NCBI RefSeq assembly: GCF_004138215.1
Contig: NZ_RYYS01000103.1
Coordinates: forward strand, 1-64,000
Reading direction: 5' to 3'
DNA: 64,000 bases
Origin: Anaerophilus nitritigenes
GTDB lineage: Bacteria > Bacillota > Clostridia > Peptostreptococcales > Thermotaleaceae
Shown here piece after piece: positions 3,529-26,206 of this stretch. Each line of letters opens with the position of its first letter. Position 1 is the stretch's first letter. The position numbers were made by a program, and so were the translations under genes. The notes below the pieces were generated by a model. It was not told where the DNA came from, ran no database searches, and worked only from the letters and a program-made list of their open reading frames with translations.

Positions 3529-4905
3529 ATGGTTAAAAAAAAAGGATACAAAATACTAATTGTAGATGATGAAATTGAGTATCAAAAGGTTCTGGCTTTA
3601 ATACTTTCAGATGTTGGATATGATATAGCTAGCTGTTCCAATGGGCATGAAGCTCTTGAACATATCGAGAAAAATATCGTAAATCTTGTACTTACTGATT
3701 TAAAAATGCCTGTTATGGATGGAGTTGAGCTGATTAAGAGAATAAAAGAAACATACGATGAGGTTGAGGTAATTGTTATGACAGCCTTTGGCAGTATTGA
3801 AAGTGCAGTTGATTCAATAAAGTATGGTGCACTCGACTATTTTGTTAAGAGTAGTGATATAAAAGAATTGGTTATGAAAGTCGATCGGTTAGCTAAAATA
3901 TATAGATTAGAGCGGCAAAGTTCTTTTTTACTTAAGAATCAAAATGAAACTGAATCATTTATTGAGTCTAAAAATAAGGAATACTTAAATCTTTTGGAGA
4001 TGTGTAAAAGAGTTGCAGATACAGGTATTAACATTTTGTTATTAGGAGAATCTGGAGTAGGTAAAGAGGTCATTGCAAACTATATTCACCGATTAAGTAA
4101 AAGAAGGCAAGAACCATTTGTTCCTGTAAATTGCCAAGTTTTCCCTGAAGGAGTCATAGAATCTGAGTTGTTTGGTCATGAAAAAGGTTCATTTACAGGA
4201 GCTATTGATACTAGAATCGGAAAATTTGAACAAGCCAACTTTGGCACCTTATTCTTAGATGAAATTGGAGATTTGCCCATTGTAACACAAGGAAAATTAC
4301 TAAGAGTTTTAGAAAGTAGGAAAATAGAAAGACTAGGAAGTAATAAGTCAATTGATTTAGATGTGAGATTTATTTCAGCAACAAATAAAGACCTTTCAAA
4401 ACAAATCATTGAAGGAGATTTTAGAGAGGATTTGCTATATAGAATTAATACATTGACGCTGAATATACCACCACTGAGAGAAAGAAGAGAAGATTTGCCA
4501 GCACTCATTAATTTTTTCATTAAAAAAATTGAAATGGATCAAAAGAAAAAAATCAAGAAAGTTGATGACAAGGTAATGGATTTTTTATTAGGATATGACT
4601 ATCCAGGAAATATTAGAGAACTTAAAAATATAATTGAAAGGATGATAGCATTAAGTAAAGATGGTGTTATTACAGTCAATGAAATATTAATGCCACTAGG
4701 TTGCGTTAATAAAAAAAAGTTGATAAATAATAATTGTGAAAAGACATTAAAGAAGGCTCGTGCTAATTTTGAAAAGATTTTTATATCAGAAGCTCTAAAG
4801 AACAATACTGGGAATGTTACCAAAACAGCAGATGAATTAGAAATAAGCACAAGGCAGCTGTGGAATAAAATAAATCAATATAAGATAGAAGTGGGAAAAG
4901 TGTGA
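3529..4905 (+). CDS. NtrC-family sigma-54-dependent response regulator (DctD-like)
   Basis: Receiver domain (about 1-120) with acidic DDE pair and phosphorylatable Asp57 in LTDLKMPVMDG; AAA+ domain with Walker A GESGVGKE, the sigma-54 contact loop GSFTGA (a Ser variant of GAFTGA), and Walker B LFLDEIGD; C-terminal Fis-type HTH (NNTGNVTKTADELEISTRQ). The ATG at 3529 is preferred over the GTG at 3523 because AAAGGGG lies 8 bases before it. The gene is coupled to the kinase gene and stands directly upstream of a sigma-54 promoter for the TRAP operon, which it presumably activates. Confidence 0.92.
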   Translation: MVKKKGYKILIVDDEIEYQKVLALILSDVGYDIASCSNGHEALEHIEKNIVNLVLTDLKMPVMDGVELIKRIKETYDEVEVIVMTAFGSIESAVDSIKYGALDYFVKSSDIKELVMKVDRLAKIYRLERQSSFLLKNQNETESFIESKNKEYLNLLEMCKRVADTGINILLLGESGVGKEVIANYIHRLSKRRQEPFVPVNCQVFPEGVIESELFGHEKGSFTGAIDTRIGKFEQANFGTLFLDEIGDLPIVTQGKLLRVLESRKIERLGSNKSIDLDVRFISATNKDLSKQIIEGDFREDLLYRINTLTLNIPPLRERREDLPALINFFIKKIEMDQKKKIKKVDDKVMDFLLGYDYPGNIRELKNIIERMIALSKDGVITVNEILMPLGCVNKKKLINNNCEKTLKKARANFEKIFISEALKNNTGNVTKTADELEISTRQLWNKINQYKIEVGKV

Positions 4906-4960
4906 ATAATTTTTCAGTGTTGAGCATGGAAGTGTGAAAAATAATTCACACTTTTTATTT
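4898..4960 (+). promoter_or_regulatory. Paired dyads: probable activator binding sites (UAS), second one also a terminator
   Basis: Two copies of the pattern TGTGAA-N6-TTCA lie at 4901-4916 (overlapping the regulator's stop codon) and 4933-4950 (perfect, TGTGAA-N6-TTCACA). Including flanks they share AAGTGTGAA and are 32 bp apart, about three helical turns, as expected for dimers of an NtrC-type activator. The second dyad followed by CTTTTTATTT can also act as an intrinsic terminator for the kinase/regulator operon. The promoter lies about 85-130 bp downstream. Function is inferred. Confidence 0.5.
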
Positions 4961-5031
4961 TTATATAAATATTGATCATCCTAAAATAAGCATTACATTG
5001 AGGGTGAAGGGCATTCATTGATTTTAGATAA

Positions 5032-5048
5032 TTGGCATGACAGTTGCA
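5032..5048 (+). promoter_or_regulatory. Sigma-54 (-24/-12) promoter for the TRAP operon
   Basis: TTGGCATGACAGTTGCA carries the invariant GG (5034-5035) and GC (5046-5047) separated by exactly 10 bases and matches the TGGCAY-N5-TTGCA consensus. It lies about 60 bases before the dctP start and just after the gene of a sigma-54 activator. Confidence 0.85.
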
Positions 5049-5106
5049 ATTATAAAATAATGATAACATCATGAATGTTAAAAATTAAAAGAAAGGATTG
5101 AAAAAG

Positions 5107-8195: not shown

Positions 8196-8554
8196 ATATA
8201 ATACTCAGAGGAATAAAAGTACATTTATTTAAAGATAAATACAAAAACGAGGGAGTAGAAAACACAATGCAAATTCAAAATCTTGAAAAATAGAAAAGAA
8301 ATCATTAACCGTCCCCAAATTTCCCAAATTTTCCATATTTTCCATATTGTTACCCATATTGTCTTATTGCCTATACTTAGTTTTTTATAAAATAAGACAA
8401 GGATATTGAAGAATTTTGTTGAAATATTCACAGCATATGTTATGTTTATATAAATAAGGAAGAAGAAAGTATCGATTAATATATAAACAACCTTTAGAGT
8501 AAAATTATATTTAGATAATGAAATTGCAGATAAAGAAGTAGGAGGTTTTAATTT
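8196..8554. other. Gene-free stretch holding a REP-like copy and pyrimidine-rich repeats
   Basis: TTAACCGTCCCC at 8305-8316 is a minus-strand copy of the GGGGACGGTTAA core found around the RAYT gene at 24.8-26.0 kb. It is followed by CCCAAATTT, CCCAAATTTT and two TTTTCCATAT units (8317-8346), an obvious short-period decay. An open frame on the minus strand here is only the translation of this low-complexity tract. GTAGGAGG at 8538-8545 is the ribosome site of the next gene. Confidence 0.55.
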
Positions 8555-11134
8555 ATGAATGATAAAAAAGTAAGTATTGTTATATCTGGGGACATATGTA
8601 TAAATTCACTTCAGTGGATTACAGACCCTCAAAATAATGAAGGATTGAATTGGCAAACCCATTTGAATATGCATACTGTTTTAAAACCTGGTGAATCTTT
8701 GTTACTATCAAAGCTTGTAGCTTTGGCAACGGATAGTTCTATATGTTCACCGAAGATCAAGTATTTAGAGTCAGATTTACCAAAAGAATTTCTTCGTTCT
8801 AATGCAACACTAGATTTATTTCCTGTATCTTCTAATGAAAAAGATAAGAATAAAGTATATCGAGTGAAACATTTTATGGGATTTACAGGACCATCATCTG
8901 GTAAGCCAAAGTTACTTCCAATTTATGATGATGATGAAAATGCTGATCTAGTAATTATAGATGATGAAAATAATGGTTTTAATTCTAATGAAGAGTTTTG
9001 GCCTTTGGCAATAAAATCATCTAAAAAATCACCTATTGTATTATATAAAATGAATAATCCTATTTCATCTAGTGATCTTTGGAAGCATCTAGAAAAATTT
9101 CATATTGAAAATACCATCGTTGTTATAAATGCTGATGATTTACGTTCAAAGGGAGTAAACATTAGCAAAAGTCTTTCTTGGGAAAGAACATCACAGGATT
9201 TTGTTTGGCAAATCAACAATAATCCGAATCTTGCCTTCCTTGCAAAATGTCATCATCTTATAGTACCCTTTGGACTTGAAGGTGCTATTTATTATAGGAA
9301 TGATAGATCAGTAGCTGAATCTAGGTTATATTTTCTTCCCTATGAATTCGAAGGAGGTTTTGTGAAAGATACACAAGGTAAAATGTATGGATTGACCTCT
9401 TGCTTTGTTGCTGGACTATCACGCAGTATTGTTTCCTCGAAAAAGCATAATAAAAAGAAGCTCTCTTATTGGCTGAGTAAAGGAATTCGAGAAGGTATTG
9501 TTGCTGCACAAAAATATTTCATAGAAGGTTTTGGTAAAAACATTGAAGAATTTACTTTTCCTAATCCTGCAATATTTGTTGAAGATGAGAACGACTTTAT
9601 ATACAAAGAGCATGTGCAGGATGTAAAAATCCCTAATGAATCTGATATAAACGGGTATTCCCGTTGGTATATACTTGAAGACAAAAGTTCCGCAAATTTA
9701 GCAGAAATTGCTTATGATATTGTTAAAAATGGAGAAAGAAAAGTACTTAAATCTATTCCAAGTGCACAGTTTGGAAAATTAAAAACGGTAGATCGAACAG
9801 AAATTGAAAGTTATAGAAGCATAAAGAATTTGATGCTAGAATATATTTCCACAACCAATGCTGTTCGTCCTTTGTCCATTTCTGTATTTGGAACACCAGG
9901 ATCTGGAAAGTCCTTTGGGATCATGGAGATAGCTGCTAGTATTGCACCCAATCTTATTAAAGCATTAAATTTTAATTTATCTCAATTTCGTACAACAGCA
10001 GATTTAATTAATAGTTTTCATAAAGTAAGGGATCTATCTTTGGAAGGAAAAGTTCCACTAGTATTTTTTGATGAATTTGATTCTACTTTTGAAGGAAATC
10101 TTGGATGGTTGAAATATTTCTTAGCACCTATGCAAGATGGTGTATTTAGAGAAGGGGATGCTATTCACCCTATAGGAAAGGCTATTTTTGTATTTGGAGG
10201 AGGTACTAGTAGTTCTTTTAAAGAATTCTGTGGAGAAGATATTACCGATGAAATGGAACAAAAACAATTCTTAAAAGCATTCAAAAGTGCAAAAGGACCT
10301 GACTTTATTAGTCGTCTGAGAGGATATGTAAATATCTTAGGACCTAATCAAGCAAATGGACAGTTAGACCAATTATTTATCATTCGAAGAGCGATGCTAT
10401 TACGATCATTGTTGGAGCGTAAAGAACCTCATTTGATAAATGAAAAGGGAGAAGCTCAAATTGATAATGGTGTACTAAGAGCATTGCTTAAAATTCCAAG
10501 ATACAAGCATGAATCAAGATCTATGGAAGCTATATTAGAGATGAGTATGTTAAATAAAGCAAAGAAATGGGAGCAATCTTATTTACCTTCTAGAGAGCAG
10601 TTAAAACTCCATGTAGACGAAGACCAATTTTTACGTCATTTAATGCATGATGCATTTTTTAGTGAAAAAATTGAAAGTCTTGCAAAAGCGATTCATCAAA
10701 AATATATTATGTTAAATAAAGATAATAAAAATATTGATGCAGATTTTATAAGTCCTTGGGATGAGCTCAGTGAAGATCTTAAAAGCTCCAATATGGATCA
10801 TGCAAAACATATTCCTAGAGCGTTACTTAAAATTAATTATGATGTTGTATCTGTTAAAGAAACACCAAAATATATTGACTTTACAGAAGATGAGTTAGAG
10901 ATTTTAGCAAACTACGAACATACCCGTTGGTGTCTTCATAGAAAAGAAGCAGGTTGGACTCATGGTAGAGTAAAAGATATAGATAGAAAAACGGATCCTG
11001 CCCTCGTTCCTTGGGATCTATTACCTGATGATAAAAAAAATAAAGTATACCAAATGGTTAAGATTTGGCCAGAAATATTGTCTAGTGCAAATTTTAAAAT
11101 AGAACCATTAAAATTTTCATCTGATAATTATTGA
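8555..11134 (+). CDS. P-loop ATPase with C-terminal RyR domain; function unknown
   Basis: 859 residues, no signal peptide or membrane helices. Three parts: (1) residues about 1-370, with VVINADDLRSKGVNISKS, CHHLIVPFGLEGAIYY and SCFVAGLSRSIV, which look like a ribokinase/PfkB-type fold (tentative); (2) an AAA-like P-loop domain with Walker A GTPGSGKS at about 446-453 and Walker B PLVFFDEFD at about 500-508, plus FISRLRGYVNILGP; (3) residues about 779-845, a RyR domain (YEHTRWCLHRKEAGWTHG, then DPALVPWDLLP), named after ryanodine receptors and found in bacteria in nucleotide-signalling and conflict-type proteins. It stands alone between two strong terminators with a good GGAGG site. A sensor/effector role is possible, but nothing here proves defence. 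Confidence 0.75.
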   Translation: MNDKKVSIVISGDICINSLQWITDPQNNEGLNWQTHLNMHTVLKPGESLLLSKLVALATDSSICSPKIKYLESDLPKEFLRSNATLDLFPVSSNEKDKNKVYRVKHFMGFTGPSSGKPKLLPIYDDDENADLVIIDDENNGFNSNEEFWPLAIKSSKKSPIVLYKMNNPISSSDLWKHLEKFHIENTIVVINADDLRSKGVNISKSLSWERTSQDFVWQINNNPNLAFLAKCHHLIVPFGLEGAIYYRNDRSVAESRLYFLPYEFEGGFVKDTQGKMYGLTSCFVAGLSRSIVSSKKHNKKKLSYWLSKGIREGIVAAQKYFIEGFGKNIEEFTFPNPAIFVEDENDFIYKEHVQDVKIPNESDINGYSRWYILEDKSSANLAEIAYDIVKNGERKVLKSIPSAQFGKLKTVDRTEIESYRSIKNLMLEYISTTNAVRPLSISVFGTPGSGKSFGIMEIAASIAPNLIKALNFNLSQFRTTADLINSFHKVRDLSLEGKVPLVFFDEFDSTFEGNLGWLKYFLAPMQDGVFREGDAIHPIGKAIFVFGGGTSSSFKEFCGEDITDEMEQKQFLKAFKSAKGPDFISRLRGYVNILGPNQANGQLDQLFIIRRAMLLRSLLERKEPHLINEKGEAQIDNGVLRALLKIPRYKHESRSMEAILEMSMLNKAKKWEQSYLPSREQLKLHVDEDQFLRHLMHDAFFSEKIESLAKAIHQKYIMLNKDNKNIDADFISPWDELSEDLKSSNMDHAKHIPRALLKINYDVVSVKETPKYIDFTEDELEILANYEHTRWCLHRKEAGWTHGRVKDIDRKTDPALVPWDLLPDDKKNKVYQMVKIWPEILSSANFKIEPLKFSSDNY

Positions 11135-11159: not shown

Positions 11160-11194
11160 AAAACAGAGGGACAGTGAAGATGTCCCTCTGTTTT
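11160..11194. terminator. Bidirectional terminator
   Basis: Arms AAAACAGAGGGACA (11160-11173) and TGTCCCTCTGTTTT (11181-11194), 14 bp perfect with a 7-nt loop and A/T runs on both sides. It separates the convergent ATPase and chemoreceptor genes. The GGGACA/TGTCCC core resembles the REP-like repeat family of this window. Confidence 0.85.
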
Positions 11195-13761: not shown

Positions 13762-13776
13762 ATGAGGTTGATGAAA

Positions 13777-14952
13777 ATGAAAATATTTCATATAAAATAC
13801 ATTAAAATTATAGGTACATTACTGTGTTTATGCATGTTGATGACTTCATGTAAACTGGTTTTTAATGGTACAAAAGATTCTGAGAGGAATAAAGAGAAGA
13901 TTGAAAAAGTAGTAATTAGTGACCCAGTAGAAAAGCAAATGTCTGATTTAGAAAAAGCCCATCAAATATTAAATGAAATGAGCCTTGAAGAAAAAGTGGG
14001 ACAAATGTTTATTGTTCGTTGTCCTCAGGAAAATGCGATACAATCTATTTCAAAGTATCATTTGGGTGGGTATATTCTTTTTGGTCGTGATTTTAAAAAT
14101 AAAACACAGGAAGAAGTTTCTTTAAACATCCAAAGTTATCAAAATGCTTCAAAAATAGATATGCTGATTGGTGTTGACGAGGAAGGAGGAACAGTAAATC
14201 GGGTTAGTGCATATAATCAATTTCGTTCTTCTCGGTTTAAGTCTCCGCAGAATTTATATAAAGAAGGAGGCTGGGCTTTGATTGCAAAAGATACAGAGGA
14301 AAAAGTTACTCTTCTTAAATCTCTTGGAATCAATCTCAACATGGCACCTGTAGGTGATGTGTCTACCAATCAAGATGATTATATGTATGCTCGTACATTT
14401 GGAAAAGATGCAAAACTTACTTCACAATATGTCCAAAAAGTTGTAGGAGTGATGAATAACAACAAATTAGGGTGTGTTTTAAAGCATTTCCCAGGATATG
14501 GAGATAATTTAGATACCCATACAGGGATGGCTTATGATTATCGTAGTTATGAATCCTTTGTCAAAAATGATTTTTTACCATTTATTTCAGGAATCAAAGC
14601 AGGAGCAGATGCAATATTGGTATCACACAATATTGTAGATTGCATGGATTCACAATACCCTGCGTCTTTATCTGCAAAGGTACATCAAATATTGAGGAAA
14701 GATTTAAGCTTTGATGGTGTTATAATTACGGATGATTTATATATGGATGCTATTCAGAAGTATACAAAAGCAGAGGAAGCAGCAGTAGTTGCAGTATTAG
14801 CAGGAAACGATATGATTTGTTGTACAGATTTTGACGTGCAAATTCCTGCTGTTATTGAGGCTGTTAAAAATGAAATAATTTCAGAGGATACTATTGATCA
14901 ATCTGTTATTAGAATATTGTGTTGGAAATTGATCCTTGACATTATAGAGTAG
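13777..14952 (+). CDS. nagZ: Lipoprotein beta-N-acetylhexosaminidase, NagZ-like GH3 (copy 1)
   Basis: About 391 residues. The N terminus is a lipoprotein signal (GTLLCLCMLMTSCKL; Cys in LMTSC), followed by a spacer and a full GH3 domain with EKVGQMFIVRC, GGYILFGRDFKN, IGVDEEGGTVNR, KHFPGYGDNLDTHTG (His248 of the NagZ Asp-His dyad) and VIITDDLYMDAI with the nucleophile Asp near 319. It would remove beta-linked N-acetylglucosamine from muropeptides or other glycans at the outer face. The ATG at 13777 is 8 bases from GAGGT; the earlier ATG at 13762 lies upstream of that site. A paralogue lies at 17.8-18.9 kb. Confidence 0.85.
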   Translation: MKIFHIKYIKIIGTLLCLCMLMTSCKLVFNGTKDSERNKEKIEKVVISDPVEKQMSDLEKAHQILNEMSLEEKVGQMFIVRCPQENAIQSISKYHLGGYILFGRDFKNKTQEEVSLNIQSYQNASKIDMLIGVDEEGGTVNRVSAYNQFRSSRFKSPQNLYKEGGWALIAKDTEEKVTLLKSLGINLNMAPVGDVSTNQDDYMYARTFGKDAKLTSQYVQKVVGVMNNNKLGCVLKHFPGYGDNLDTHTGMAYDYRSYESFVKNDFLPFISGIKAGADAILVSHNIVDCMDSQYPASLSAKVHQILRKDLSFDGVIITDDLYMDAIQKYTKAEEAAVVAVLAGNDMICCTDFDVQIPAVIEAVKNEIISEDTIDQSVIRILCWKLILDIIE

Positions 14953-14987: not shown

Positions 14988-15014
14988 AAAAGAGACAATG
15001 AATTTGTCCCTTTT
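14988..15014. terminator. Bidirectional terminator
   Basis: Arms AAAAGAGACAA (14988-14998) and TTGTCCCTTTT (15004-15014), one internal mismatch, 5-nt loop. It lies between the convergent NagZ and methyltransferase genes, one base from the latter's stop. Confidence 0.65.
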
Positions 15015-15015
15015 G

Positions 15016-15828
15016 CTAATTTACTTGAATTTTTATTATTTTCGCCATTTTTTTAAATCTTGGAATGCACCAGAGCCACCTCATATTTCTCCATCTTTTT
15101 CCTCCAACATCAAAATGGTACCATTCTTTTACAAAATGAAGTCGATTATCAAAGCATTCAATTTCTTTTCCTGACTTAAATCCAGAATAAAATTCAGATT
15201 TTGTTTTTAGTTTGTTCACTGACTCATGATGCTTTGATTTTCCTACCGCCAGGGGATCCATTGCTTCAAAAACAATATATGAATTTGTAAAGTGATCTGC
15301 TAATTTCTTAAATAAATTTTTTAATTGAGGTATATCAAAATACATAAATATACCTTCTGCGATTATTAACACATTTTCTTTTTTGTCTATTAAATCCATC
15401 CATTCATACTCAAATACTGATTTTTCTATAAATTTAAGTCTATCTGTTTCTTTTATGAATTTTCTTCTGATGTTTATTCCTTCAGCTAAATCTATATCAT
15501 ACCAGCGAATATTTTTAAGATCTATTCTAATAGGTCTTGTATCTAGACCAGCACCTATATTGATGATGGTTCCATTAGGGTTTTTTTCTACATATGCTTT
15601 AGTCAAATCATCTAGTATTTTAGTTCTTGCTGCAACACCAACTTGTGTTTTATAAAATTTATTATCATCTCCAAATATAGAAAAATCGTAATCAATTTTT
15701 TTTACTATCTCTAAAGATTTAAAATCTTTTATAATACTATCTTCTCTTTTGGTTTCCTGTGCTCTAGCCCATACTGGTATAAGCATGGTCTCTGGAACTC
15801 CTACTAATTCTTCTTTATATTTTCCCAT
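15016..15828 (-). CDS. Class I SAM-dependent methyltransferase, leucine carboxyl methyltransferase (LCMT/PPM1) family
   Basis: 270 residues. TKILDDL, GTIINIGAGLDTRPIRID (SAM-binding motif I) and RWYDIDLAE, then VLIIAEGIFMYF, are the LCMT-family pattern. In bacteria these act on small molecules or polyketide/siderophore-like products rather than phosphatases; the substrate here is unknown. Start ATG with AAAGGGTG 9 bases upstream. A 17-of-19 match to the Fur box sits 66 bases upstream, so it is probably induced by iron limitation. It is monocistronic. Confidence 0.8.
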   Translation of the reverse strand: MGKYKEELVGVPETMLIPVWARAQETKREDSIIKDFKSLEIVKKIDYDFSIFGDDNKFYKTQVGVAARTKILDDLTKAYVEKNPNGTIINIGAGLDTRPIRIDLKNIRWYDIDLAEGINIRRKFIKETDRLKFIEKSVFEYEWMDLIDKKENVLIIAEGIFMYFDIPQLKNLFKKLADHFTNSYIVFEAMDPLAVGKSKHHESVNKLKTKSEFYSGFKSGKEIECFDNRLHFVKEWYHFDVGGKRWRNMRWLWCIPRFKKMAKIIKIQVN

Positions 15829-16243
15829 ATTGATTCACCCTTTCTTTATCCCTTAAAACTTTTATTTTTATACTGTTATAAAATTTATTACAAGATATTG
15901 AAAATCATTATCATTACATTTTTTAAAAAAATATGTATTTCAAATAAAATACATAATGAAAGCTATAACCTTAATTTTTAATGTTATTTTTTCATAATAA
16001 AATTATTTCTGATTGATAAAATTTTGAGTTAAAATAATCTAATGAAATAATATGGATCTAGTAACTCTACTTTTTTTATGATATCATATAATATTTTTTT
16101 TTGCACTATAATAAGTTATTGTATTTTACAATAATTAATTAACTGTCCCTACACTTTTACTACACTTTTACACTTTTATAAAAAAAACAAATGTTACAAT
16201 TGACACATATGAACATAAATAAAGTAGAGAGGGGGGAGCGATT
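15829..16243. other. AT-rich divergent region with Fur box and degenerate REP copy
   Basis: No gene seen. Besides the Fur box, TTAACTGTCCC at 16139-16149 is a one-base variant of the window's REP core in minus orientation, followed by three ACACTTTTA units (16151-16179). AGAGGGGGGAG at 16227-16237 is the ribosome site of the sigma factor gene. Confidence 0.45.
15894..15912 (-). promoter_or_regulatory. Fur box upstream of the methyltransferase gene
   Basis: GATATTGAAAATCATTATC matches the 19-bp Fur consensus GATAATGATAATCATTATC at 17 positions. It lies 66-84 bases before the minus-strand start, about where the -35 element should be, so iron-loaded Fur would block transcription. Confidence 0.65.
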
Positions 16244-17780: not shown

Positions 17781-18878
17781 TTGTTATGGTATAATGGAAA
17801 AAACTTAAAATACGAGGTTGATAAAAGTGAAAAAATAATAGTTAGTGACCCTGTAAAAGAGGAGATCTCTAATATAGAAAAAGCTCGTGAAATATTAAAT
17901 GAAATGAGCCTTGAAGAAAAAGTTGGTCAAATGTTTATTGTTCGTTGTCTACAGGAAAATGACGTACAACTTATTTCAAAGTACCATTTAGGTGGGTATA
18001 TTCTTTTTGGTCGTGATTTTAAGAATAAAACACAAGAAGAAGTTTCTTCTAATATCCAGAGCTATCAAAATGCTTCAAAGATAAATATGTTGATTGGTGT
18101 TGACGAGGAAGGTGGAACGGTAAACCGTGTTAGTTTATATGATGAATTTCGCTCTACTCGGTTTAAGTCTCCACAGGATTTATATAAAGCAGGTGGATGG
18201 GATTTGATTGCACAAGATACAGAGGAAAAAGCTATCTTGCTTAAGTCTCTTGGAATCAATCTCAATATGGCACCTGTTTGTGATGTGTCCACAAATCCCT
18301 CTGACTATATTTATAAACGTACATTAGGAAAAGATGCGAAACTCACCTCGCAATATGTTCAAAAAGTTGTAGGTGTTATGAATGAGAATAAACTGGGTTG
18401 TGTTTTAAAGCACTTCCCTGGATACGGGAATAATTCAGATACCCATACAGGAATTGCTTATGATCATCGAAGTTATGAATCTTTTGCAAAAAATGATTTT
18501 TTACCATTTATTTCACGAATCGATGGAGGAGCGGGTGCAGTATTGGTATCCCATAACATTGTAGAATGTATGGATTCTAAATATCCTGCATCCTTATCTT
18601 TAAAGGTACATCAAATACTAAGAGAAGATTTAAACTTTGATGGGGTTATTATGACAGATGATTTGTATATGGATGCTATTCAACAATATACAAAAGCAAA
18701 ACAAGCAGCAGTGGTTGCTGTATTATCAGGTAATGATATGATTTGCTGTACGGATTTTGAAATACAAATTCCAGCTGTTATTGAGGCTGTTAAAAATGGA
18801 ACAATTTCAGAGAGTAAGATTGACGAATCAGTTATTAGAATACTATGTTGGAAATTGAGTCTTGGTATTGTTGAGTAG
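17781..18878 (+). CDS. NagZ-like GH3 paralogue (copy 2), signal peptide lost; probably a damaged gene
   Basis: The GH3 domain is complete (EKVGQMFIVRC, GGYILFGRDF, KHFPGYGNNSDTHTG, VIMTDDLYMDAI) and very close to copy 1 at 13.8-15.0 kb. The first 40 or so residues are not: the region that matches copy 1's ribosome site and start (GAGGTTGATAAAAGTG) now reads GTG-AAA-AAA-TAA in the old frame, because a deletion between short TGAAAA repeats joined the start region to the IIVSDP segment out of frame. The open frame extends to a TTG at 17781, but that lies before the extended -10 (TGGTATAAT, 17787-17795). Without a usable start and signal it is likely poorly expressed or cytoplasmic; the first internal ATG is at 17903. 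Confidence 0.6.
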   Translation: MLWYNGKNLKYEVDKSEKIIVSDPVKEEISNIEKAREILNEMSLEEKVGQMFIVRCLQENDVQLISKYHLGGYILFGRDFKNKTQEEVSSNIQSYQNASKINMLIGVDEEGGTVNRVSLYDEFRSTRFKSPQDLYKAGGWDLIAQDTEEKAILLKSLGINLNMAPVCDVSTNPSDYIYKRTLGKDAKLTSQYVQKVVGVMNENKLGCVLKHFPGYGNNSDTHTGIAYDHRSYESFAKNDFLPFISRIDGGAGAVLVSHNIVECMDSKYPASLSLKVHQILREDLNFDGVIMTDDLYMDAIQQYTKAKQAAVVAVLSGNDMICCTDFEIQIPAVIEAVKNGTISESKIDESVIRILCWKLSLGIVE

Positions 18879-22787: not shown

Positions 22788-24237
22788 TATAAAAATAAAA
22801 TGGACTATATTTATTATTTTATTACTTATTTTTAATCTTTTTATCATAAGTTTTTTTATGTTAAAAGGAATAGAAAAAAACCAAAGACAATCTTATGAAG
22901 CATTTTTAAAAGACAATAGTAAAACGGCAAATCTTTATATAAGGGAGAAATTTCTTTCTAGTGATTATGAAGATTGTAATAAATTTTATACTGAAAATGC
23001 ACAAGAAATAGGATTTAATTTAGGGAGAATATTAGATTTGTATATATCATTTTATGATATGAAAGGAAATTTGATATCAAGTATACAAAGTGATATAAAA
23101 GATGAAAAAAATCTAAAAATCATGAAGGAAGCTTTAAATAACAAAATCGTATATGAAAAAAATAATGAAAAGATATTGTATCTAGCTCCTGTATATGATT
23201 TAAAAAAACAAATTGGTGTATTAAAATTTGAATATGATACGCAAAAAGAAAAAGCTTTTTATAAAGAAATCAGACTGCTTTTCTTAGAAGTTGGAATAGC
23301 TTCGATTGTTGTGACTTATTTATTGGCACGTTTTTATTTTTCAAAAATTGTTCATAACATCTTAGGACTTAAAAAATCTGTAAAAGAAATTGAAAAAGGA
23401 AATTATGAAGCTGTAAAAATATTAGATGAAAAAGATGAAATTGGGGATTTGAGTAAAGGCATATATTTTATGGCAAGTAGAATAAAAGGAAATATGAATG
23501 AGATTCATAATGAAAAAGAAAAACTACAGCTGGCTGTAGAAAAACTTCAAAGATTAGAGAAGCAGCAAAAAGAATTTATAGGAAATATTACTCATGAATT
23601 TAAAACTCCACTAACTGTAATAAAAGCACAAATAGATTTGATGACCCTTTATAAAGATGATGAAGATATGGTACATAAATCAAAGGAAATAGCAGAAAAA
23701 GAATTAAAAAGATTAGATAGCATGGTAGAGAATATACTTTATTTATCAAGAATTGAAAAATATGATTTTGAATTAAAAAAAGAAAAAATAGATACAAAAA
23801 AAGTTCTCATAGATATATGTAATAGAATGAGTGGAAAAGCTTCTAAATTTGGCATAGAAATCATAAAAAATATCCAGTCAGCTTATATTTTTATGGATTG
23901 TGAAAGCTTTATGCAAATATTTATAAACCTTATAGACAATGCAATCAAATACAATATAAGTGATGGAAAAATATATATAAGAAGCTATGTAAGAGATAAT
24001 TACAACTATATTGAAATAGAAGATACAGGGATCGGAATACCCTGTGAGTATAGAGAAAAAATATTTGATCCCTTTTATACAGTAGATAAAAATCGATCAA
24101 AAAAGTTCTCGGGAACTGGGCTAGGACTTTCTCTTGTCCATAACCTTGTAAAAAAACAAAAGGGACGGTTAACTATTTTAAACTCTAAAGTGGGAACTAT
24201 TTTTCAAATTATATTTCCTATTTATAATGAAAAATGA
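22777..24237 (+). CDS. Sensor histidine kinase
   Basis: 486 residues: helix 1 (about 8-30), extracellular region (about 31-165), helix 2 (about 168-188), HAMP (about 188-240), coiled coil, HisKA with His273 in GNITHEFKTPLTV, and ATPase domain with LIDNAIKYN, DTGIGIP and GTGLGLSLVHNL. Partner of the regulator in front; the signal is unknown. A copy of the window's REP core, GGGACGGTTAA at 24162-24172, lies in frame in the codons for KGRLT near the C terminus, where kinases often have a G-x-hydrophobic segment, so the protein is not disrupted. Confidence 0.92.
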   Translation: MKASIKIKWTIFIILLLIFNLFIISFFMLKGIEKNQRQSYEAFLKDNSKTANLYIREKFLSSDYEDCNKFYTENAQEIGFNLGRILDLYISFYDMKGNLISSIQSDIKDEKNLKIMKEALNNKIVYEKNNEKILYLAPVYDLKKQIGVLKFEYDTQKEKAFYKEIRLLFLEVGIASIVVTYLLARFYFSKIVHNILGLKKSVKEIEKGNYEAVKILDEKDEIGDLSKGIYFMASRIKGNMNEIHNEKEKLQLAVEKLQRLEKQQKEFIGNITHEFKTPLTVIKAQIDLMTLYKDDEDMVHKSKEIAEKELKRLDSMVENILYLSRIEKYDFELKKEKIDTKKVLIDICNRMSGKASKFGIEIIKNIQSAYIFMDCESFMQIFINLIDNAIKYNISDGKIYIRSYVRDNYNYIEIEDTGIGIPCEYREKIFDPFYTVDKNRSKKFSGTGLGLSLVHNLVKKQKGRLTILNSKVGTIFQIIFPIYNEK

Positions 24238-24291: not shown

Positions 24292-24798
24292 ATGTTTTAT
24301 TTAAATAAATTTTATTCAGAATATAAATGGGAGGACATAAAAGAAAAAGGAATATTTAAATATATATTAGTTGATGTAACATTATATAAAATAATTGTTC
24401 AAGGAATGATTTTATGTATTCTTAATGGTATTTTTACTGGGGCTATATCAAATGTGAATCAATTTTATTTTAGAGATATATTTATAAAATTATTATTATT
24501 TTCTTTATTGGGAGTAACTATTGGATATTTAGAATGGAATTTTTTAAAACAATTAGGAAAGAAAGATTCAAAACTTGATTTTAATATGTTTTTAAGATTT
24601 ATAGTGATATATGGAGTCCTTAACTGGGGTGTATTATTAGGGATTGCTGTAAGTAATTATTTCTTAAAGGATTTTATTATGAAGTTAATTATTTGGGGAA
24701 TGGTAGGAATGGTATATGGAATAATATTATGGTGGATTCATTATGATAAATTTAAAAAGCTTTCAAATGGAACAAGGGATGGAACAAGGGACAGTTAA
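24292..24798 (+). CDS. Four-helix integral membrane protein of unknown function
   Basis: 168 residues with about four hydrophobic segments (about 33-55, 62-84, 96-118, 125-147) and short polar ends. I do not recognise the family. It has an AGGGAGGA ribosome site and follows the kinase gene by 54 bases, so it may be part of that operon. Its last residues (NGTRDGTRDS) and stop are encoded by the tandem GGAACAAGGGA repeat that leads into the REP-like array, so the original C terminus was probably replaced. Confidence 0.65.
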   Translation: MFYLNKFYSEYKWEDIKEKGIFKYILVDVTLYKIIVQGMILCILNGIFTGAISNVNQFYFRDIFIKLLLFSLLGVTIGYLEWNFLKQLGKKDSKLDFNMFLRFIVIYGVLNWGVLLGIAVSNYFLKDFIMKLIIWGMVGMVYGIILWWIHYDKFKKLSNGTRDGTRDS

Positions 24799-24840
24799 AT
24801 ATTAATATGAACAAGGTGAACAAGGGACGGTTAAATATTA
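24775..24840 (+). repeat. REP-like direct repeats, left flank of the RAYT gene
   Basis: GGAACAAGGGA occurs at 24769-24779 and 24781-24791, then GGGACAGTTAAATATTAA (24788-24805) and GGGACGGTTAAATATTAA (24824-24841). The core GGGACRGTTAA is thus present twice in plus orientation immediately before the transposase gene, while two copies in minus orientation lie after it. Confidence 0.8.
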
Positions 24841-24867
24841 AGAATAATAAATGATAATATGCAGAAA

Positions 24868-24900
24868 CTACTCCTAAAAGAACAAAGGAGTAGGTTTTTT
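24868..24900 (+). promoter_or_regulatory. Hairpin sequestering the RAYT ribosome binding site
   Basis: CTACTCCT (24868-24875) pairs with AGGAGTAG (24886-24893), loop 10 nt, followed by GTTTTTT and the ATG at 24901. The only good Shine-Dalgarno, AGGAG (24886-24890), is inside the right arm. The structure is both terminator-like and able to hide the start site, so transposase synthesis should be low. Confidence 0.55.
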
Positions 24901-25797
24901 ATGCCTAGAGTAGCTCGAGTAAAAAGCGAAGAAGGAATTTATCATATTATGTTTCGGAGTATAAGTGAAGTGAATTTGTTTTTAGATGATATAGACAAAA
25001 TAAAATATTTCAAATTGTTTCAAAAATATCAAAAGAAGTATCAATTTAAGGTATATGCCTATTGTTTGTTAGATAATCATGGACATATGATCATAGATTG
25101 TAATGGAGCAGACATATCTAAAATTATGCATAGTATTAATTTTTGCTATGCTCAATATTTTAATAGAAAATATAATAGGCATGGGCATTTATTCCAAGAT
25201 AGATTCAAGAGCAAATTGATTAAAGATGAAAAATATTTGATTACATTATCTGCGTATATTCATAACAATCCTAAGGATTTGCCTAATTATAAAAATCAAG
25301 TAGAAAGATATCCATTTTCTAGTTTAAATGATTATATCAAAGGAAGCAACAGTTTTGAAATATTAGATATTTCTTTTCTAAGTCAACTACTTAATTTAAC
25401 TAATAAAAAAAATAAGAAAACTTATATTGAATTTGTAAAACAATGCGAAAATGAAAATGATTCTATTGATGTAGAATTTGAAAAAGTTGAAAATGTATAT
25501 AAAAGCGAAAGAAGAATTATTCCAAGAAACTATACAGGAGAAGAAGTTGTAGAAATGGTAGCTAAACATTTAAAAATAGAGCAAAATAGAGTATATGTAA
25601 AATATAAAAGGAAATACGTAAAATTAAGAGCCATTAGTTGTTTTTTAATGAGCTGTTATTGTAATATGACTCAAAAGAGGATATGTAGATTAATAGGAAA
25701 TATTACTCAGACGAGAGTTTCAAATTTATCTATGATAGGTATGGAGATGGCTTTTAAAGAAGACGGATTGTTAGAGAAATTTTTAAAAAGTGCTTAA
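24901..25797 (+). CDS. REP-associated tyrosine transposase (RAYT, Y1/IS200-like)
   Basis: 298 residues from the ATG at 24901. MPRVARVKSEEGIYHIMFRS, a single HUH pair in NHGHMI (His60, His62), GHLFQDRFKS and the catalytic Tyr119 in YIHNNP are the Y1 transposase layout used by RAYTs. The C-terminal half (about 215-295) has a DnaA/HTH-like segment (YVKLRAISCFLMSCY). Such enzymes nick and join single strands at REP hairpins. It is flanked by two plus-oriented and two minus-oriented GGGACGGTTAA cores, a REPtron-like arrangement. An upstream in-frame ATG at 24859 would put the hairpin in the coding region and has no ribosome site. Confidence 0.88.
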   Translation: MPRVARVKSEEGIYHIMFRSISEVNLFLDDIDKIKYFKLFQKYQKKYQFKVYAYCLLDNHGHMIIDCNGADISKIMHSINFCYAQYFNRKYNRHGHLFQDRFKSKLIKDEKYLITLSAYIHNNPKDLPNYKNQVERYPFSSLNDYIKGSNSFEILDISFLSQLLNLTNKKNKKTYIEFVKQCENENDSIDVEFEKVENVYKSERRIIPRNYTGEEVVEMVAKHLKIEQNRVYVKYKRKYVKLRAISCFLMSCYCNMTQKRICRLIGNITQTRVSNLSMIGMEMAFKEDGLLEKFLKSA

Positions 25798-26206
25798 GCT
25801 TAAATAAATATTTACAGAAATCAAGGGGTTATTTTGAGTGCCTAAAAATAAAATAGAATCCAATAAAGGAGTCTTTTATCTTGTGATAAAGGATTTTTTT
25901 ATTGTAATATTAAAATTTATTAACCGTCCCCAAACCCTATTAACCGTCCCCAAACCCGTTCTAAACCCTACAAAACTGCCCAAAACTGAAACCAAAACCC
26001 AAAAACCATGTGATAAATCTAAAGTAATGAATAGATATATGAAATAGATATACGTACAGTTAAAGTTATTATTTAAATATATGAGGGAAATATGTTGATT
26101 TATGGTAATGGGAATGTTTTAATATTATTAGGCAAGGAATATTTTGTTATTTAAATAGTTGGAATGTTCTTAAAGTTAATACATTAGAGTAAAAAGGAGA
26201 GTATCT
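25798..26206. other. Gene-free stretch around the right-hand repeat
   Basis: Apart from the repeat tract there is a hairpin TTTTATC/GATAAAG at 25874-25890 before a T-run, probably ending the transposase transcript. A frame open from 25838 to 26047 just translates the C-rich repeat and has no recognisable protein features. AAAAGGAGAG at 26191-26200 serves the next gene. Confidence 0.45.
25920..26010 (-). repeat. Inverted REP-like pair with C-rich (minus-strand G-rich) tail
   Basis: TTAACCGTCCCCAAACCC occurs at 25920-25937 and, as TTAACCGTCCCCAAACCCG, at 25940-25958, followed by a decaying series of CCCTA, CCCAAAA and CCAAAACCC units to about 26009. Read on the minus strand it is a run of GGG/GGGG tracts separated by 3-10 bases. 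Composition is far from the surrounding AT-rich DNA. Confidence 0.75.

Follow-up and report, generated by a model that had tools for sequence, protein, structure and literature searches.

A TIRYT/TIRtron-type transposon in Anaerophilus nitritigenes with tandem arrays of flank and element end at its junctions

Why should a transposase gene be flanked on each side by two copies of the same short repeat? The window, i.e., the whole 64,000-nt stretch of Anaerophilus nitritigenes DNA that was analysed, contains a Y1 transposase gene (24901-25797) with two plus-oriented GGGACRGTTAA cores before it and two minus-oriented cores after it. A preliminary description had reported this arrangement, whose coordinates hold, and had likened it to the REPtron layout, a RAYT gene with REP/BIME repeats. 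We find that the locus is a 1.1-kb transposon of TIRYT/TIRtron layout, nearest to TnpA_Y1 subclass 2.1, and that its repeat is not a REP/BIME. The point that is new is that junction arrays, built of flank plus element end, account for the doubled cores.

The element and its termini

The window holds seven exact copies of GGGACRGTTAA, where 0.03 would be expected in shuffled windows. They lie at 8305-8315 (-), 16139-16149 (-), 24162-24172 (+), 24788-24798 (+), 24824-24834 (+), 25920-25930 (-) and 25940-25950 (-), within one base of where they had been placed before. The two cores nearest the gene are the terminal inverted repeats (GGGACGGTTAA; 24824-24834 on the plus strand and 25920-25930 on the minus strand), as identified by motif scan and paralogue comparison, and the whole element runs for 1107 bp from the GGGAC of its left end to the GTCCC of its right end (24824-25930, +). 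We compared six paralogues, three from the genome of the window (G000) and three from a same-genus relative (G001). In the last 11 bp of the left and right ends, mean pairwise identity is 0.95 and 0.94, but it falls to 0.34 and 0.31 in the 30 bp beyond them. Similarly, G000 C73 and G001 L066 are homologous over 1.2 kb at 87% identity, up to the GTCCC end, the other side being a contig end. GGGACRGTTAA is the terminus of the element, because identity and homology stop there. Several copies with such defined ends occupy different sites in G000 and G001, as copies of an insertion sequence do.

By eye, the copies have no constant target site and no general target-site duplication, the C75 pair having a possible one of 5 nt; four miniature copies in G001 have CATCA in common on the left. 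Folding places one hairpin (CTACTCCT..AGGAGTAG; 24868-24893, +) directly before the start codon, over the likely ribosome-binding site, and another near the right end (25861-25904, +). Twelve left ends were folded, and the stem of the first hairpin is shared by the six copies nearest to that of the window. Both hairpins presumably have roles in the element, and GGGACRGTTAA is probably recognised by the Y1 transposase, which would mobilise the element and its derivatives.

Motif abundance depends on a close transposase, which we define by our own cut of at least 50% identity over most of the length. The G000 genome has 23 copies of GGGACRGTTAA versus 1 match to the reversed control pattern. Five of the 23 are coding coincidences: four lie inside ORFs of at least 90 residues, including 24162-24172, and the fifth (L011) lies in what we read as a short Hfq-like frame and counts as non-coding under the 90-residue cut-off. 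The remaining 18 lie in non-coding DNA or extend over the end of a gene. Across the 16 genomes of the family, the six with a close transposase have 23, 27, 19, 15, 8 and 5 copies (reversed control 1, 1, 3, 1, 3 and 2) and the remaining 10 have 0-5; G014 has 5 (control 1), yet no transposase match. At the level of the order (78 genomes), the four genomes with the close transposase clade, which are mutually related and so do not amount to four independent tests, have 23, 27, 19 and 15 copies. None of the remaining 74 exceeds 6 copies (range 0-6), and together they have 88 versus 155 control matches; they include G077, with one distant transposase match (E 3.8e-63) and 3 copies. The link between repeat and transposase made in the preliminary description is thereby upheld, both by the genome-wide enrichment and by the inverted flanks on several transposase paralogues. 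It was to be given up if the motif proved not to be enriched, or equally abundant in related genomes without the transposase; neither is the case, because the motif is enriched and its abundance is limited to genomes with a close transposase.

Arrays at the junctions

Outside many ends there are locus-specific tandem units, in each of which several nucleotides of the local flank are joined to the first bases of the element end, in most cases G or GG and sometimes 8-29 nt. The left junction array of the window element (24768-24823, +) was read and parsed into units as tggaacaaGGGA / tggaacaa + 20 nt of end / tgaacaaGG / tgaacaa, and the core at 24788-24798 sits in the unit of tggaacaa and 20 nt. 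By unit parsing, the right array (25931-25957, -) has one 20-bp unit of 7 nt of flank and 13 nt of end, which holds the core at 25940-25950. The doubled cores are local duplications of the end with some nucleotides of flank. Arrays also stand outside the window ends at 8305 (8316-8363, -; absent beside the corresponding G001 end) and 16139 (16150-16178, -; found by repeat scoring). Units at other loci are built alike, each locus having its own flank, and loci labelled Clostridium, Caloramator, Fonticella and Fervidicella have arrays by eye, some with another tail after GGGAC. We parsed 118 unit steps, which, like the 118 sites they come from, are not independent because coding coincidences and several ends within one array are included; the number of end bases per unit (k) is 0 in 20, 1 in 31, 2 in 43 and at least 4 in 24 of them. 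Altogether, k is at least 1 in 98 of the 118, and random recurrences have k of 0 in 66%, 1 in 22% and 2 in 7%.

The arrays lie on the outer side of the ends. Among the 23 G000 copies, the background q95, a whole-number score (7) that somewhat more than 5% of random windows therefore reach, is reached in the 45 bp outside at 17 and in the 45 bp inside at 4. By shuffling, 11 of the 18 non-coding copies and none of the 5 coding ones reach P < 0.05 on the outside, and 1 of all 23 does so on the inside. For a broader set we took the GGGAC nearest the gene on each side, which gave 98 ends from 58 elements. The family contributed 23 of 25 matches with at least 50% identity over most of the protein (G009 C41 and G013 C4 were left out, and so was a fragment of 87 residues), and other genera contributed 35 of 56 loci (without 18 matches that were partial or truncated and three JADPRS loci duplicating G009). 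Sides that gave no end, having no GGGAC in range or meeting the end of the locus, number 5 of 46 in the family and 13 of 70 in other genera. The array definition was set after viewing G000 and G001, and the other-genera set (B) is the independent check. One record, labelled 'Lutibacter sp. B2' (L162, L163, L201), has contigs like those of G009, which is grouped in the family of the window; Lutibacter is a genus of Bacteroidota, and the label looks wrong.

An array with k of at least 1 stands at 36 of the 98 ends, left and right alike (20/50 and 16/48), and the other 62 have no array in this form. At 23/41 family ends and 23/57 other-genera ends, the 5-mer adjoining the element is found again within 32 nt; at 18/41 and 18/57, this second copy runs on into one or more bases of the end. 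At random positions before GGG (n = 2597), 8.7% recur, 3.1% with a base of the end. At the same loci, 38 nt further out, 4/41 and 5/57 recur (with an end base at 4 and 3), and at other GGGAC sites more than 700 bp from transposase genes, some of which are ends of other elements, 12/113 recur, 10 of these sites with an end base. The hairpin-type GGGAC ends of distant relatives (18 loci, with a downstream range of 900 bases versus 400 for the ends beside transposase genes) have an array at 2/25 (Fisher P 0.003), a contrast of degree because reiterated units are also seen by eye in some of them (L039-L041, L053). In distant relatives L030-L036, L042, L045 and L053, GGGACGG lies inside a hairpin whose stem varies by lineage, unlike the window type.

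We consider it probable that this is a transposon of the TIRYT/TIRtron kind, in which a Y1 enzyme moves the element and its derivatives, and breakage and re-copying at the junction yield the arrays. Because the arrays are linked to the element type of this transposase, we infer that its cleavage makes them, by fill-in of a staggered or nicked end or by strand slippage at the cut. Most likely, the enzyme would cut at the boundary between flank and GGG, or 1-2 nt inside it. The break or nick would then be repaired by local re-copying across the junction, mostly of 7-12 nt, over a stretch that runs from the flank into the first bases of the element and often ends after G or GG. This would leave a tandem duplication, and the process may repeat to give locus-specific units that resemble extra cores; fill-in of a staggered cut and slippage of the growing strand at the cut would both fit. 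For human cells, small tandem duplications at DNA break ends are reported (PMC8355091). If the enzyme does make the arrays, one gene family would explain the short tandem repeats beside these elements, and the arrays make the way in which such an enzyme cuts DNA open to test. A bolder idea, tentative and a little short of an even call, is that the ends are standing hot spots, where each failed or completed Y1 cut leaves the flank and the first 1-2 element bases duplicated. The arrays would then be a fossil record of cleavage position and stagger for this enzyme group, and the ends a source of fast-changing repeats in these genomes.

Could ordinary replication slippage after insertion do the same, with no role for the transposase and with G-rich ends merely favouring slippage? 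This account asks for no enzyme at the ends and suits the finding that 3 of 6 aligned orthologous ends differ between species by at least 8 nt just outside the end. However, the recurrence seen at the boundary falls away 38 nt further out, is low at random positions before GGG and is matched at few hairpin-type GGGAC ends, and we regard slippage as an unlikely, if serious, explanation.

It is a good deal less probable that the arrays pre-existed in the target and that the element prefers sites beside short tandem repeats. Many units have k of 0-2, which chance could supply in part, given the share of random recurrences with k of 1. However, the 24 unit steps with at least 4 end bases hold 4-29 nt of the element end, and such units were therefore not in the target beforehand. 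In the window, TCAA precedes the outermost copy of the flank, and an element-like GGG precedes the next. The order at G001 C12, going inwards, is outermost flank copy, 20 nt of end, altered flank copies, element; the matching site in G000 C60, with ~92 bp between the aligned flanks, is empty and has no array, in a stretch that has also diverged. At the rarA-hom junction (named by our own reading), which is occupied in G001, G000 has no array, but G001 has ~350 bp of extra DNA. Comparison of L109, L115 and L066 with their own genome, and of five joined-flank sites with G001, gave no clean second empty site. Taken together, the empty site, the differences between orthologues and the end-bearing units favour arrays that were probably duplicated at the junction during or after insertion.

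The transposase and its relatives

The 298-residue product of 24901-25797 (+) is a Y1 (HUH) transposase with a C-terminal part that appears to be DnaA-domain-IV-like. It matches Pfam Y1_Tnp (E 7.6e-17), as well as Bac_DnaA_C at 20.4 bits (under the cut-off of 31.5) and NCBIfam REP_Tyr_transpos, REP-associated tyrosine transposase, at 60.3 bits (under the cut-off of 80). A sequence search against solved structures gave 0 matches at E 0.01, so the fold is a predicted one, from an AlphaFold2 model with a mean pLDDT of 85.7 (19-row alignment). The best solved match of the model is 4er8, the E. coli RAYT bound to a REP hairpin (target TM-score 0.73), with IS608 transposases next; 1j1v, DnaA domain IV on a DNA box, ranks 45 (E 0.1, target TM-score 0.74). 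Both HuH histidines (NHGH) and the Y---NP motif (YIHNNP) are present.

The nearest protein group appears to be TnpA_Y1 subclass 2.1. In the available text of PMC6006769, a 2018 survey, this group ranks second in size among Y1 transposase relatives and has no REP-like sequences beside it, and class 2 has a hydrophobic HuH middle residue (L, V, I, F, Y or M). Like subclass 2.1, the window gene encodes a long Y1 protein with Y---NP and a putative DnaA-C/HTH-like tail and has no REP beside it. However, the HuH middle residue (position 61) is G in the window protein and in 13/13 rows of alignment A2, so that subclass 2.1 is the nearest group and membership is not proven. The 19 rows of alignment A3 have G in 7, A in 3, L in 5 and V in 4; a small residue (G or A) is found in many members of the clade in the two alignments. 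The window family also differs from the published account in having several related copies per genome with exact ends, as an insertion sequence has. From sequence comparison, a clade close to subclass 2.1 thus seems to behave as a mobile insertion sequence, with exact inverted ends, miniatures and, in two elements, a passenger gene.

The closest described kind is the TIRYT/TIRtron, an arrangement set out in the available text of PMC3733652 and PMC6006769, the only two papers in which we found the terms (the literature searched lacked most subscription papers). As in the former, a RAYT-like tyrosine transposase lies between inverted repeats that are not REPs. The same text reports that many TIRtrons have in common GGGGWSAS, a GGGG-rich motif, with copies elsewhere in some genomes. 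GGGACRGTTAA fits this only in part. The ends read GGGACAG or GGGACGG; a fourth G belongs to the flank in some copies and is missing from others, and the GGGACGG form departs from the consensus. What is available of PMC3733652 describes no exact boundaries and no miniature pairs, passenger gene or flank-plus-end arrays, and the available text of PMC6006769 has nothing on such arrays either. The nearest precedents for the arrays are the large REP clusters reiterated with flanking DNA (PMC3733652) and the tandem REPIN clusters that include flanks (PMC3116915), again as far as the available text goes. Literature on RAYT tandem repeats, tyrosine transposase slippage and IS200 junctions, with few subscription papers among it, contained nothing comparable.

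IS200/IS605 elements such as IS608 have the Y1 fold, hairpins near the ends and a hairpin over the start of the transposase gene, and the window element is like them in all three. In contrast, the window family has true terminal inverted repeats and junction arrays, and its left junctions have no constant 4-nt target by eye.

The REPtron reading, a domesticated RAYT with REP/BIME palindromes, draws on the best structural match and on the NCBIfam name, under cut-off as it is. The available text of PMC3116915 adds likenesses to RAYTs with REPINs: the Y1 fold, non-autonomous inverted pairs and tandem clusters that include flanking DNA. However, palindromic REPs with a GT[AG]G foot were not found beside the gene (ends by eye, left ends folded), and the tandem units are short flanks with partial ends rather than whole REPINs. 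In addition, the ends are the precise limits of several related copies in each genome, and passenger or miniature DNA lies between them. We therefore reject this reading as very unlikely, because REP hairpins are missing from the ends, which coincide exactly with the boundaries of the element; the boundary comparison of the six paralogues largely refutes it, and the proposed REPtron layout falls with it.

Dispersed ends, derivatives and passengers

As part of the TIRYT/TIRtron explanation, the dispersed non-coding motif copies are likely to be ends of miniature or passenger-carrying derivatives. Two GGGACA/TGTCCC hairpins at 11160-11194 and 14988-15014, which had been listed along with the copies, are terminator-like by eye (a stem, then a T-run), have no GTTAA and were rejected as members of the motif family. 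A regulatory site or terminator unrelated to mobility, which these hairpins might suggest, is hardly credible and already contradicted, since they have no GTTAA and the motif marks element boundaries with an abundance that tracks the transposase. The copy at 24162-24172 was correctly placed, but we rejected it as a family member: it encodes ..KGRLT.. within a histidine-kinase-like gene, the corresponding G001 kinase gene carries the same DNA, and the match is a coding coincidence. The copy at 24788-24798 is not strictly intergenic either, because it overlaps the 3' end of ORF 24292-24798 and provides its stop codon. The last codons and stop of this ORF (..NGTRDGTRDS) are made by the junction array, and the stutter has therefore altered a neighbouring reading frame.

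The solitary end at 8305-8315 (-) corresponds to a degenerate end in G001 L101. The end at 16139-16149 (-), from the motif scan, lies beside a methyltransferase gene (15016-15828). A leucine-carboxyl-methyltransferase-like gene adjoins a family end at three sites in two species (window 15016-15828, L058 2211-3024 and L101 949-2070), with a broken frame in L058. This block (window 15017-16157) was considered as an element, being found at three different sites, but we do not call it one because its left boundary has no matching end.

Six pairs of exact inverted ends enclose no transposase and measure 59-274 bp from end to end: G000 C75 has one, G001 C13 and G009 have two each, and G010 has one although it has no close transposase. 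In G001 C13, four related miniature copies lie less than 6 kb apart, and the right end is altered in three of them. All four (100 bp each; L109 1350-7182) have CATCA as left flank and are alike in their right flanks, as though they had multiplied locally. In G001 L063, a DUF2971 gene (4139-5068) lies between the transposase and the right end. In G000 C27, a DUF2971 gene (L059 2486-3415) lies between a left and a right end with no intact transposase gene, in an element that has ~160 bp resembling the transposase 3' region. The two elements stand on opposite sides of the same homoserine-dehydrogenase-like gene (by our own reading), and it seems that DUF2971 was carried along by the element as a passenger. 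PADLOC gave no match for DUF2971 as a defence gene, and it is not mentioned in the literature found by a search limited to 2026. In G006, L104 (2428-4022) and L105 (5882-7089) have ORFs that we read as IS3-like transposases between the Y1 transposase and the right end. Elsewhere in the window, two similar ORFs (13762-14952 and 17781-18878) both align to a single G001 stretch (L101 ~8884-10088).
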